A DNA stretch of 33,099 nucleotides. Origin: Magnetococcales bacterium DCbin2 (lineage in GTDB: Bacteria; Pseudomonadota; Magnetococcia; Magnetococcales; UBA8363). The translations under genes were made by a program, and so were the position numbers. Numbering within the stretch: the first letter of the stretch is position 1; each line of letters starts with the position of its first letter. The notes beneath the pieces were generated by a model. It searched no databases. It saw only the letters and a list, made by a program, of their open reading frames with translations, and was not told where the DNA came from. This document shows positions 3,028-9,861 of this stretch, one piece after another. The stretch lies in assembly GCA_002753615.1 (NCBI GenBank), contig PEAO01000031.1, positions 1 to 33,099 of the forward strand. Direction: 5' to 3'.

Positions 3028-3546
3028 ATGAAAGTTTTTCTTCTTTCCATCCATCGCTTCAGCAACGCGCTCAGTGAATGGATGGGGAAATGGGTCGCTT
3101 GGCTCACCTTGCTGATGGTGTTCATCGTCTTTGTGGTCGTCGTTCTGCGCTATCTGTTCGATTGGGGACGGATCGATCTCCAGGAATCGGCTATCTACGT
3201 CCATGCCGCTATCTTCATGCTTGGGGCCGCCTATACCTTGAAACATGATGAGCATGTGCGGGTGGATATTTTTTACCGGCCAGCCGCCCCCAAAACCAAA
3301 GCTTGGATCAACCTCCTCGGCGTGGTATTCCTGCTGTTCCCGATGATGGTCTTTATTTTTTCCATGAGTTGGGAATATGTCGCCGTCTCCTGGTCCATGC
3401 ACGAAGGGTCACGCGAAGCGGGTGGCCTCAATGGCGTGTGGCTCCTGAAAGGGCTGATCCTGGTCATGCCTTGTCTGGTTAGTTTCCAGGGGTTGGGACA
3501 GTTGGCCGAATCTTGCCTAACTATCCTGGATTGGAAAAAGGATTAA
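3028..3546 (+). CDS. dctQ: TRAP transporter small permease subunit (DctQ-like)
   Basis: Four-TM small protein directly upstream of DctM; DctQ-like LRYLFDWGRIDLQESAIYVHAAIFMLGAAYTLKHDEHVRVDIFY. Confidence 0.9.
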   Translation: MKVFLLSIHRFSNALSEWMGKWVAWLTLLMVFIVFVVVVLRYLFDWGRIDLQESAIYVHAAIFMLGAAYTLKHDEHVRVDIFYRPAAPKTKAWINLLGVVFLLFPMMVFIFSMSWEYVAVSWSMHEGSREAGGLNGVWLLKGLILVMPCLVSFQGLGQLAESCLTILDWKKD

Positions 3547-3552
3547 CGATTC

Positions 3553-4938
3553 ATGGAAGAATACGCCGCAATTTTCATGTTTGTCGCCGTGGCGACGATC
3601 CTCCTGGCCGGCTATCCCGTGGCATTTTCCCTGGCCGGGGCCTCCCTCATCGGGGCGTTGATCGGCAATGCCCTTGACCTCTTCGATCCCGCCTTCCTTG
3701 AAGCGGTCCCCAACCGCATCTACGGTATCATGATGAATGATACCCTCATGGCGGTGCCACTCTTCGTCTTCATGGGGGTTACCCTGGAACGCTCCCAAGT
3801 GGCGGAAGACCTCCTGGAAACCATGGCCCTCCTGTTTGGCCGCTTGCGCGGGGGGATCGCCATCTCCGTCATGGTGGTGGGAACCTTGCTCGCCGCCAGT
3901 ACCGGAATTGTCGGTGCCACCGTCGTCACCATGGGGCTGTTGTCACTCCCCACCATGCTGCGCCGAGGCTATGATCCCGCTTTGGCTTCGGGAACCATCT
4001 GTGCCGCCGGAACCCTCGGCCAAATTATCCCACCCTCTATCGTCCTGGTGATCCTCGGCGATGTCCTCTCCGCCTCCTATCAGCAGGCACAGCTTAAAAT
4101 GGGGGTCTTCTCCCCACGAACCGTGTCGGTGGGCGATCTGTTTGTCGGGGCCATCCTCCCAGGTTTACTCCTGGTGGTTCTGTATATCATCTATATTGCC
4201 GCCATCGCATACTTGCAACCGACCCGCGCACCCGCCATTCCCGCCGAAGAACGGGAATTCCATAGCAAGGGCCTCGGGTTGCGGGTTATCCAGGTTCTCA
4301 TACCCCCCGTGGTGTTGATCGTCTCGGTGATGGGATCCATCCTCGCCGGCCTAGCAACACCCACAGAGGCCGCTTCCGTCGGGGCGGTGGGATCCTTGCT
4401 CATGGCAACCTTGCGGGGCCGTATGAATCGAGCCTCTTTGGAAGAAATCCTTCGCAGTACCATGCGGATCACCAGCATGGTCTTCATGATTTTTATCGGA
4501 GCGGCGGTGTTTTCCCTGATTTTTCGTGGGTTTCATGGCGATGACATGGTTCACGACATGTTGCTTGATCTCCCCGGCGGTGCCATGGGTGCCCTGGCGG
4601 TGGTCATGGTGGTCATGTTTTTGTTGGGCTTTATCATCGATTTTATCGAAATTACCTATGTGGTGGTCCCGATCGTTGGGCCACCCTTGCTGGCATTGGG
4701 ATTGGATCCGATTTGGCTTGGTGTCATGATGGGCGTCAACCTGCAAACATCATTCTTGACGCCGCCGTTTGGCTTCGCCTTGTTTTACCTCCGGGGAATC
4801 GCACCTCCCTCGCTACGTACTGCCGATATTTATCGCGGTGTCTTTCCCTTTATTGTGATCCAGGTATTGGCATTGTTTCTTCTGGTATTTTGGCCATCGT
4901 TGGTCACTTGGCTGCCGCAGGTGATTTACGGAAACTAG
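3553..4938 (+). CDS. dctM: TRAP transporter large permease subunit (DctM-like)
   Basis: Multi-TM protein with GYPVAFSLAGASLIGAL, GTLLAASTGIVGATVVTMG, AAGTLGQIIPPSIVLVILGD, TPTEAASVGAVGSLL. Confidence 0.95.
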   Translation: MEEYAAIFMFVAVATILLAGYPVAFSLAGASLIGALIGNALDLFDPAFLEAVPNRIYGIMMNDTLMAVPLFVFMGVTLERSQVAEDLLETMALLFGRLRGGIAISVMVVGTLLAASTGIVGATVVTMGLLSLPTMLRRGYDPALASGTICAAGTLGQIIPPSIVLVILGDVLSASYQQAQLKMGVFSPRTVSVGDLFVGAILPGLLLVVLYIIYIAAIAYLQPTRAPAIPAEEREFHSKGLGLRVIQVLIPPVVLIVSVMGSILAGLATPTEAASVGAVGSLLMATLRGRMNRASLEEILRSTMRITSMVFMIFIGAAVFSLIFRGFHGDDMVHDMLLDLPGGAMGALAVVMVVMFLLGFIIDFIEITYVVVPIVGPPLLALGLDPIWLGVMMGVNLQTSFLTPPFGFALFYLRGIAPPSLRTADIYRGVFPFIVIQVLALFLLVFWPSLVTWLPQVIYGN

Positions 4939-6544: not shown

Positions 6545-7645
6545 TCATGGATTATTTCCGTTATCCCTCTGGGAGAGGAGGGGAGACGGTTTCGGTACAG
6601 CATCGGCATTCCCCAGTGATTTTCTAATTGTCTTAAATAGTTCCGTTCGCAGATGCTCCATGGAAGGCTCCCCTCCAGGATGAAATGGCAAGGTGCGGCA
6701 ACGGTTGATGGCGGCCAGACCAACCCGTGCCGTAAACAGCCCATTGGCCGCCCCCTTGCCAACCTGGGCCAGCATGATGGAGGCGGCATGTCCTCCCACC
6801 GCTTCCGCCACTTTGTCGGCCAATAAATCGGCTGTCCCCGCCATGAATAAACCCAACATAACCTCCTTGGCTAAAAACAGGCTGGCCGACCAACTTGGCT
6901 TAAGTCCATAACATTGGGCGATCATGCGGATCATCCGCAGGTTTTGCCATAGAAAAACCAAGCTATCCAGCCAGACAAAAGGGCTGATGGTCGAAGCCAG
7001 AGCCGTGGTACTGCCATGCTGGACAATCATGCGGTAGCAGTGTTGGTCGTGTTGGACATAAACCGTCCTGGATAAAAGCTCCAGAAGTTCCCGATCATCG
7101 TGATGTTCTCGGGCCATATCCTGATAGTGACGCCAAGCCGGTTGCAACCATTCTTCCTGGCTCATGTCATGGCGTAATCGCAGGGCCAGGGGGATCCCTT
7201 GGCCACAACTTCGGGTATCCCACATCTGCCGGATTTGGTGACGTAATCCGTCAAACCGGCGCAAACGGACAAATCCATGGGCCTCGTTGAACAGGATCAT
7301 CACGCTTGCCGTCAGGGTGATCAGGATCAACAGGCCAAATACCGCCCCCAATGCCCAGTGTTGTTGAAACTGATCCAGCACAAAATAGACCGCCTCCTCA
7401 ATCCATGCCCCCGCCAACCAAGTCATGCCGCCAAAAATGAGCCAAACTAGCCATCGATGTTGCACCAAAGAATCCCATCGTTGTACCGCCAGGGCCACCT
7501 CCTGGACGGGTGAAGGATCCTCTTCCGGTTCATCGGGGGCGGGCAATTCCACTGGAGTGATGGAGGGGGGGGCTTTTTCCGCGCTGGCGGTGGAACGGGC
7601 GGCGACCAGTTCAACGGGGGGGAGCCAGGGGTCGGAGGCGTTCAT
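6545..7645 (-). CDS. ycjF: YcjF/TIGR01620-family membrane protein (DUF697-like)
   Basis: Two hydrophobic segments and a C-terminal GTARVGLAAINRCRTLPF-like motif; ancestral ATGA overlap with a ycjX 3' end copy. Confidence 0.82.
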   Translation of the reverse strand: MNASDPWLPPVELVAARSTASAEKAPPSITPVELPAPDEPEEDPSPVQEVALAVQRWDSLVQHRWLVWLIFGGMTWLAGAWIEEAVYFVLDQFQQHWALGAVFGLLILITLTASVMILFNEAHGFVRLRRFDGLRHQIRQMWDTRSCGQGIPLALRLRHDMSQEEWLQPAWRHYQDMAREHHDDRELLELLSRTVYVQHDQHCYRMIVQHGSTTALASTISPFVWLDSLVFLWQNLRMIRMIAQCYGLKPSWSASLFLAKEVMLGLFMAGTADLLADKVAEAVGGHAASIMLAQVGKGAANGLFTARVGLAAINRCRTLPFHPGGEPSMEHLRTELFKTIRKSLGNADAVPKPSPLLSQRDNGNNP

Positions 7646-7707
7646 GTCAACTTGTCTCCCAGGAGAAAATCGAGGGCCAGATTCAGGCGCAGGTGACCCA
7701 GGCGATC
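7638..7707. repeat. Left copy of 70-bp direct repeat: ycjX 3' end plus ycjF start
   Basis: Matches 8421-8490 at 67/70 positions; encodes LDFLLGDKLT* overlapping the ycjF ATG on the minus strand. Confidence 0.95.
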
Positions 7708-8004
7708 GTAACCGTTCAGACTCCCCCCCTTAAAATTATCGAAAGAAAAAAGGGGTCTGGGGGATTGCCCCCAGGGTTTTGATGTTGTTTTTGAATTTAA
7801 ACAAAAAGGTTTCCATGCTTAAGCTTTTGACCTTGCTTTTGAATTTAAACAAAAATATTTCTAGCGGCTTTTGATTTAAAGTCAAAAACAAATTCAAAAG
7901 CAAAAAATTGAAGCTTTTGATTTAAAGTCAAAACCCTGGGGAAAGAATTCCCCAGACCCCTTCTTTCTTTTCAATAGTTTTTTAGGGGGGGTCTGAATGG
8001 TTAC
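7708..8004. mobile_element. MITE-like inverted-repeat element (~297 bp) with ~75-bp imperfect terminal inverted repeats
   Basis: Left arm gtaaccgttcagactccccccc...ggggtctgggggattgcccccagggttttga is mirrored by the reverse complement of the right arm gtaaccattcagacccccccct...ggggtctggggaattctttccccagggttttga; AT-rich core with duplicated ttgaatttaaacaaaaa and cttttgatttaaagtcaaaa motifs; no ORF. Confidence 0.75.
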
Positions 8005-8062
8005 GGCGAGTCTTTCTCGACAAAATCTCGGAGCAGGAACCTACTCGTGATCATTGCCACCG

Positions 8063-8368
8063 TTACGTTGTTTCTCTGATTGTCTGACAGCGACTCTTGC
8101 TCCGGTCTCGAAGTCGCTGAACGACATCACCGGCGAGCTGGACTTTGCCTTTCTCGACCTGAAGCGTGCCGAGCGCAAGAATTTTCAGAAGGGCCATGGT
8201 CTCCTGGTTTTGCTCATAACTTTCAATGTCCTGCATCACGACCTTGGCTTCGCCATTCTGGGTGATGACCAGGGGGCCGTCTTGCCCCGATAGGTTACGC
8301 ACGATTTCTGCGGCATGGGCCTTCAGACAACTGATTGGTTTGATCTGACGCGATAGTTTCATGACCAT
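8063..8368 (-). CDS. Phd/YefM-family type II antitoxin, apparently without an intact toxin
   Basis: MKLSRQIKPISCLKAHAAEIVRNLSGQDGPLVITQNGEAKVVMQDIESYEQNQETMALLKILALG, typical of Phd/YefM antitoxins. Confidence 0.9.
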   Translation of the reverse strand: MVMKLSRQIKPISCLKAHAAEIVRNLSGQDGPLVITQNGEAKVVMQDIESYEQNQETMALLKILALGTLQVEKGKVQLAGDVVQRLRDRSKSRCQTIRETT

Positions 8369-8420
8369 CCTCCCTTCATGACCAGATATAGTCTAAAAAC
8401 AGGTCGAATGTCAATCGGAT

Positions 8421-8490
8421 GCGTTCACGTTAACTTGTCTCCCAGGAGAAAATCGAGGGCCAGATCCAGGCGCAGGTGACCCAGGCGATC
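8421..8490. repeat. Right copy of 70-bp direct repeat (3' end of ycjX)
   Basis: 67/70 identical to 7638-7707; the ycjF start codon inside this copy reads GTG instead of ATG. Confidence 0.95.
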
Positions 8491-9861
8491 ATCGGCATCC
8501 TCCCGGGGAATCTTCGGCTCAAACTCCAAAAAATTAAATCGTTCGCTTTGCCAAGCTTCCGGTTTGGGGATTTTTTCGGGGATTTCACCACCGAATAACA
8601 ACACCTCCTCTGTGCGGCCTTTGGGACGCCCTTTGACGAAGGATAATCTCCGCCCCTGGTGTTCCTTGACCACGGTTTCCGTAGAGACCACCGAAGAGAT
8701 GGCCATGGTATCCACCGTGACCCCATGGAAAGTGGCATCGTTGACCGGATCCATCAAGATCCGTTTGAGCAGCCGTTCCAGGTTGCCATGCTGATTGGCG
8801 GCGACATGGTCCGCTTTGGTGGCGACAAATAACAAGCGGTCAATGCGGGGCTGAAACAGTCGGGATAGGGTGGAGGAGCGGCCATAATCAAAATTTTTCA
8901 AAATACTTTTCTCAGCAGGGTCCATATCGGCAAAATGTTCCGGCCCCCGGTTGAGACCTTTGAGGAGGTCCACCAGGACAATCTGCCGGTCAAAATGCGA
9001 AAAATGTTGGTCATAAAAACGACGGACGACCCGATCTTTATAGGATTCAAAGCGGTCTGCCATCACCTGGCCCAATGAACCGGGTTGCGTCGATTGGGTG
9101 GTGTGCCGGATCGGGCAAAAGGTCAGGATCGGCGCATCTTTCAGATCGCCGGGGATTAAAAAGCGGCCCGGTTGCAGATAGCTCAACCCCACAGGTTCCG
9201 CTTTGCACGCCAAAAGAAAGTCGGTAAACAAGCGACTCGCCTGCCGCAGAACCCCCTCTTCGGCATTTTGGTGCGGGTCCAGATTTTTAAGATATTCTAA
9301 CCAGGGTTGCGCTAGCGTAGCGCGTGGTTCACGGGTACACAGGGTGAACACCTCATCCGACCATTGGGCGAAACTTTGCCCCAAGAGCGGCAGATCCAGC
9401 AACCATTCCCCCGGATAATCGATGATGTCCAGATAGATCGTCGTGCTGGAACGGACGCGGCTTTGGAGAAATCCAGAAGGGCGGAAACGGATGGCCAAGC
9501 GGATTTCGCTCAGACCATCGGTCGCCTTGGGCCATGCGGGGGGGGTGGCGGTGAGGGTTTGAATGAACTGATCATACCGAAACGCCGGAATATCCATGTT
9601 GGGCTGGATCACCGTCTTGGCCCCCTGGAAACGCCCTTCGGCGACAACCTGAAAAAAAGGTAATCCCCCCAGGCGTCCCCCCTGAAGCAGTTGATGAATC
9701 ATCGCGGTGATGAAAACGGTCTTGCCCGATTGATTCAAACCGGTGACTGCGAGTCGGATGCGGCGATCCATCGCCAGATAAAGGAGATCTTCCAAGCCTT
9801 TTCTGGCTTCGTCCACCACGGATCCCAGATTCATCCTTTTGAGTTCGGGCACAGTCCACAT
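8425..9861 (-). CDS. ycjX: YcjX-family P-loop GTPase-like protein
   Basis: Walker A-like AVTGLNQSGKTVFITAMIHQLL; DIIDYPGEWLLDLPLL; FVATKADHV. Confidence 0.93.
   Translation of the reverse strand: MWTVPELKRMNLGSVVDEARKGLEDLLYLAMDRRIRLAVTGLNQSGKTVFITAMIHQLLQGGRLGGLPFFQVVAEGRFQGAKTVIQPNMDIPAFRYDQFIQTLTATPPAWPKATDGLSEIRLAIRFRPSGFLQSRVRSSTTIYLDIIDYPGEWLLDLPLLGQSFAQWSDEVFTLCTREPRATLAQPWLEYLKNLDPHQNAEEGVLRQASRLFTDFLLACKAEPVGLSYLQPGRFLIPGDLKDAPILTFCPIRHTTQSTQPGSLGQVMADRFESYKDRVVRRFYDQHFSHFDRQIVLVDLLKGLNRGPEHFADMDPAEKSILKNFDYGRSSTLSRLFQPRIDRLLFVATKADHVAANQHGNLERLLKRILMDPVNDATFHGVTVDTMAISSVVSTETVVKEHQGRRLSFVKGRPKGRTEEVLLFGGEIPEKIPKPEAWQSERFNFLEFEPKIPREDADDRLGHLRLDLALDFLLGDKLT

Follow-up and report, generated by a model that had tools for sequence, protein, structure and literature searches.

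There is little explanation for how toxin-antitoxin (TA) operons move when no transposon, plasmid or phage carries them. In a 33,099-nucleotide stretch of the Magnetococcales bacterium DCbin2 genome (contig PEAO01000031.1; hereafter the window, in genome G000), a small insert separates ycjX from ycjF, and a long direct repeat flanks it. What entered this gene junction, how did the repeat arise, and why are both neighbouring genes whole? The best explanation, which we regard as probable, is that a TA operon inserted with a long target duplication in the ancestor shared by G000 and its sister genome G004, and that the toxin was lost later.

A duplicated gene junction encloses a small insert

A repeat search of the window recovered two direct copies of the ycjX/ycjF junction, identical at 72 of 76 positions (95%), which enclose a 713-bp insert (7708–8420). 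The features of the locus are collected in Table 1. The initial annotation had claimed a 67/70 match between 7638–7707 and 8421–8490; recomputing gave the same figure, and the repeat extends to 7632–7707 and 8415–8490. The right copy holds the last 66 nt of ycjX, and the start codon of the ycjF-like gene sits within the left copy. The reading of the junctions also holds: the left copy ends in LDFLLGDKLT and a stop codon, with an ATGA overlap into ycjF; the right copy is the present end of ycjX and has GTG where the left copy has ATG; and both host genes are intact, the ycjX 3′ end and the ycjF start each being preserved. The vestigial five-codon frame is the residue of the duplicated ycjF start, and an ATG version of it is found in G004. 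The further claim that this GTG is a mutated start turned out to be uninformative, as ycjF starts with GTG at the empty junction in G001, G002, G003, G005 and G006; in G004 the ycjF start is ATG in both repeat copies.

Table 1. Coordinates of the features around the ycjX/ycjF junction in the window
Feature	Position	Strand	Basis or remark
ycjF-like gene (TIGR01620 / DUF697)	6545..7645	-	366 aa; TIGR01620 above cut-off; PF05128 match
Left target copy: ycjX 3′-end duplicate and working ycjF start	7632..7707	-	inner ~7 bp missing relative to G004
MITE-like imperfect palindrome, ~300 bp	7707..8005		inverted repeat; ends [GA]TAACCGTTCAG
~89 bp unmatched in G004	8006..8094		between palindrome and conserved part of antitoxin; overlaps altered 3′ end of antitoxin
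Orphan Phd/YefM antitoxin, 101 aa	8063..8368	-	PF02604 2.8e-12; TIGR01552 above cut-off; alignment to G004
TA promoter	8385..8414	-	-35 TTGACA 8414–8409; -10 TATATC 8390–8385
Vestigial 5-codon frame GTG AAC GCA TCC GAT TGA	8411..8428	-	read from sequence
Right target copy: ycjX 3′ end and first ycjF codons	8415..8490	-	repeat search 95%; single-copy in six congeners
ycjX (DUF463/YcjX-like)	8425..9861	-	478 aa; PF04317 2.5e-169

Close relatives carry an uninterrupted junction

The initial annotation had proposed looking for a single-copy empty site in close relatives, and such a site is present in six of seven congeners (G001, G002, G003, G005, G006 and G007). In these six genomes the junction is uninterrupted, and ycjX meets ycjF directly through an ATGA or GTGA overlap. 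Among the more distant relatives of the same order that were checked, ycjF lies close behind ycjX in most. A genome-wide search found neither repeat copy elsewhere in G000. Since there are no other copies in G000 and the junction is single-copy in six relatives, the repeat is not due to chance.

The sister genome retains the complete operon

The sister Magnetococcales MAG G004 (record JADGCQ010000027), whose ycjX protein is 98% identical to that of the window, carries the complete form of the insert. There, 731 bp lie between two 83-bp repeat copies (92% identical) and contain an antitoxin gene (PF02604) and a gene for a 112-aa protein of the ParE/RelE toxin superfamily (PF05016, 4.1e-19), nothing else. 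The insert corresponds to no known mobile element, and the complete 731 bp encode no recombinase or integrase remnant. Judged by domain content, the adjacent Phd/YefM and ParE/RelE genes, which carry their own promoter, form a predicted type II TA module, and the ParE/RelE protein would presumably be toxic. The direct repeat of the occupied allele, 76 bp in the window and 83 bp in G004, is far longer than the target duplications of transposons.

Over 76 bp, the two repeat copies differ at four positions in G000 and at six in G004. Meanwhile, the left copy of G000 is nearer to the right copy of G004 than to the left one. These copy-to-copy differences and the cross-similarity suggest that drift or conversion has somewhat blurred the repeat record. 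The same direct repeats would result from Campbell-type homologous integration of a circle, or from transformation, provided that the donor already had the ycjX-ycjF junction beside the TA genes, and one copy could then depart from the local sequence. However, in sequence the two copies lie nearest to each other and to the local genome, with every congener more distant; no donor was seen, and the donor's own origin would still have to be explained. We consider this origin of the repeats very unlikely.

The insert of the window has lost its toxin

Compared with G004, the window has lost the toxin, the G004-type tail of the antitoxin and ~7 bp at the inner edge of the left copy. The orphan antitoxin that is left keeps its conserved core, and its C-terminal part is unlike that of G004. 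Across 88 codons the two antitoxins differ by eight synonymous and four nonsynonymous changes, numbers that do not settle current selection. The 5′ end of the cassette, on the side of the TA promoter, directly adjoins the right repeat copy. Alignment to G004 picks up again at 8095, and the unmatched segment before it marks the junction of the event that deleted the toxin. In G000, a genome only 78% complete, a search recovered no further toxin of this family.

The palindrome next to the left copy has the features of a MITE: it is short and high-copy, it has terminal inverted repeats, and it lacks coding capacity. Dozens of copies occur in G000 and in G004, and we notice that a palindrome of ~250–330 bp with the ends [GA]TAACCGTTCAG is common to the genus. 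As the gene order on both sides of the palindrome agrees with G004, a chimeric assembly at this repeat is unlikely.

Because the palindrome abuts the left repeat copy in the window, it could be imagined that this inverted-repeat element mobilised the antitoxin and created the duplication. The palindrome is missing from the ycjX/ycjF site in G004, where the duplication is full; it is therefore the later arrival and not the cause of the duplication. Full-length copies listed in G000 likewise show no clear target duplication, nor do other copies in that genome have a long one. This explanation is refuted. The initial annotation had described the 713-bp insert as an inverted repeat plus an antitoxin, which is correct for its present content but not for the original cassette, a complete TA operon as in G004. 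Its broader proposal, insertion of a cassette with a long duplication, is borne out by the six empty sites, except that the palindrome is a later, unrelated element that replaced the toxin.

The ends of the transferred unit coincide with the repeat boundaries

A search with an alignment of the toxin gave 80 loci, spread over many phyla, that belong to the same TA family; these were aligned to the G004 insert. Similarity of the DNA across the family starts at TCnGATTGAC, that is, at the -35 box of the TA promoter, and most of the ~80 listed family loci share the promoter block TTGAC...GACTATATT. At the other end, similarity falls off ~6 bp beyond the toxin stop, and locus L175 has the same letters, GCATAACTCTC, up to that point. 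Both limits of the family homology are the repeat boundaries in G004, and the transferred unit is thus the bare TA transcription unit. Where the cassette joins the target on the promoter side, it ends in TCCGA in G004 and in TCAGA or TCCGA in relatives, and the target reads TCCGA, possibly a 5-bp microhomology.

Flanking repeats at other loci of the TA family

Upstream and downstream flanks were compared at 83 loci of the TA family, with 1500 mismatched flank pairs as the control. Flank repeats scored above all 1500 mismatched pairs at five of the 83 loci. These are the G004 insert itself (L171, 83 bp), a locus in another genome of the same order (L090, 51 bp), L191 (24 bp), L207 (357 bp) and L189 (79 bp), of which the last two have repeats in repeat-rich DNA and weigh less. 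About 78 of the 83 copies lie without a flanking repeat; a long duplication is thus not a required mark of these insertions, if decay of old repeats is left aside.

Two of these loci have surroundings of their own. In L191, from a Gammaproteobacteria MAG (3601–4518), the TA relative and its 24-bp direct repeat lie beside what appears by eye to be a tmRNA 3′ end. In L207, from a Desulfobacteraceae MAG (3280–4712), the TA relative is placed between two 97% identical copies of ~357 bp, consisting of a MITE-like repeat and adjacent DNA.

Other cargo with long duplications

The initial annotation had further suggested searching the genome for similar duplications beyond small inserts. In search of single-copy direct repeats we scanned ~1.04 Mb of G004 in 100 stretches, 20 of which had been picked for TA or palindrome hits, and the scan gives no unbiased frequency. 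Besides the ycjX case, two loci with empty sites in relatives were recovered. One (L299, G004:C172, 9561–10542) is a ParD-ParE operon between a small gene and the downstream gene, with a 132-bp repeat beginning 11 bp past the toxin stop, and its site is empty and single-copy in G001, G002, G003 and G007. A ParD-ParE copy in G005, used to fix the exact ends of this operon, gave no clear boundary. The other (L252, G004:C2, 11671–12545) is a gene for a 120-aa coiled-coil CCDC90/XhlA-like protein with a 145-bp repeat, and the empty site is single-copy in six congeners. At both loci the repeats include the end of the first gene together with the start of the second, or a region near that start, and the neighbours are whole. 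Sequence and length of the repeat differ by locus (83, 132 and 145 bp), and there is no constant att core.

These loci bear on two other routes to the same arrangement. Tandem duplications are common, and the same end product is expected if replication slippage or unequal exchange first doubled the junction in tandem, with the TA operon entering between the copies later, or if the TA operon came first and duplication with partial loss followed. However, none of the relatives compared has a tandem duplication of the junction without the cassette, the repeat boundaries are the cassette ends, and the two further G004 loci, with different targets, would require this coincidence to have occurred at three places. 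We therefore hold two separate steps to be unlikely.

Integrases often rebuild the 3′ ends of genes. A decayed integrative element, with a site-specific recombinase acting at gene 3′ ends, would leave the repeats as attL and attR and the TA genes as leftover cargo; the 24-bp repeat of L191 beside an apparent tmRNA 3′ end would agree with this habit. On the other hand, no integrase remnant exists in the 731-bp insert of G004, the cassette ends are TA operon ends in unrelated genomes, and the three G004 loci have unlike repeats, which extend to the beginning of the next gene or into it. An integrative origin is accordingly quite unlikely in our judgement.

The scan and the inspection of TA loci gave further candidates of unequal value. 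At L257 (G004:C7, 7874–9544), a 205-bp stretch from the pheA 5′ region is repeated on both sides of a gene for a membrane protein and one for a GNAT acetyltransferase; the pheA side is single-copy in G000, G007 and G005 and the other flank is not conserved, which gives partial support only. A Transposase_31/DUF4351 (Rpn-like) gene with a 42-bp direct repeat (L348, G004:C50, 5668–6808) is a plausible but weaker candidate. At L112 (G000:C18), a Phd-ParE pair has a 79-bp repeat at the start of a Fur gene, and G004 differs there by a larger segment. Within L304, a 111-bp repeat lies in a HigA-like gene. Further two-copy repeats were seen in G004 at L276, L305, L294, L291:9272, L260 and L360 and as a second pair in L252.

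Other candidates were rejected. The Phd-PIN locus L098 (G000:C100) has an 80% repeat whose left copy runs into a deleted remnant of vapBC, and the right part is missing from G004; within 1238–2900 an intact vapBC, the Phd-PIN pair and the deleted remnant together mimic a target duplication. The repeat of L132 is a multi-copy motif found at other loci and hence not a unique target, and those of L277, L266 and L298 are paralogous genes or domains.

Proposed history and mechanism of the insertion

Returning to insertion of a TA operon with target duplication, we propose the following course. In the common ancestor of G000 and G004, a Phd/YefM-ParE/RelE operon of ~731 bp with its own promoter would have entered the ycjX/ycjF overlap, and ~83 bp of the target would have been doubled, so that the right copy kept the ycjX 3′ end and the left copy the ycjF start. 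The product looks like that of a single step. Probably the TA DNA was captured at a break where the cuts or processed ends of the two strands lay ~80 bp apart (~80–150 bp across loci), and filling of the single-stranded gaps then gave the duplication. The 5-bp microhomology TCCGA at the promoter-side joint possibly helped the capture. In the G000 lineage only, the MITE-like palindrome and an accompanying deletion would then have replaced the toxin and the antitoxin tail and trimmed the left copy at its inner edge, leaving the orphan antitoxin. Neither a donor sequence nor an extrachromosomal form came to light, and the mechanism of insertion is therefore read from its products alone.

At tight gene junctions, insertions with a duplication long enough to rebuild both genes would preferentially survive, and the duplication may be visible through selection as well as chemistry. 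A broader reading, which we put forward tentatively and hold to be somewhat doubtful, is that this lineage has an active route, independent of any recombinase, for the insertion of small self-contained operons, TA pairs above all, at tight junctions with duplications of 40–200 bp. The duplication would spare the neighbours, and such a route could explain the spread of lone chromosomal TA pairs.

Comparison with known systems

In domain content, antitoxin-first order and a promoter upstream of the antitoxin, the cassette resembles Phd/YefM-ParE/RelE modules, whereas the window has only the antitoxin and no toxin. The window thus makes a later fate of such an insert visible, in which the antitoxin is retained and the toxin is gone. 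Like integrase-type islands at gene 3′ ends, the insert has a direct repeat that regenerates a 3′ end; unlike them, it has no recombinase, its repeats are locus-specific, and the 5′ end of the next gene is regenerated as well. Non-transposon genes with flanking repeats at new sites are likewise described, for a eukaryote, in a report on transposed genes of Arabidopsis (PMC2869330).

The closest likeness is to restriction-modification systems. A review describes their insertion in the absence of a mobile element, the target duplications being long and variable (~100 bp) (PMC3874152), and another article illustrates such an insertion (PMC1643837); through these two articles the case goes back to Nobusato et al. 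(2000, Gene 259:99) and Furuta et al. (2010, NAR 38:2428). Shared features are an addiction-type pair, a variable direct duplication on the order of 100 bp, the lack of a mobile element and discovery by comparison of close genomes. In contrast, the cargo here is a type II TA operon, with a ParD-ParE operon and a lone coiled-coil gene as further cases, the host is a lineage of the Magnetococcales, and the boundaries can be assigned to the TA transcription unit. In the literature searched, whose coverage is incomplete, we found no report of insertion with long target duplication for TA operons. The mode of insertion is already known for restriction-modification systems; what is new is that it reaches TA operons and that the ends fit the operon exactly. 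A naked TA operon has been caught here with precise ends, six empty sites, both neighbours rebuilt and two more cases in G004, which extends the restriction-modification mode of insertion to TA operons and provides a signature that can be searched for.
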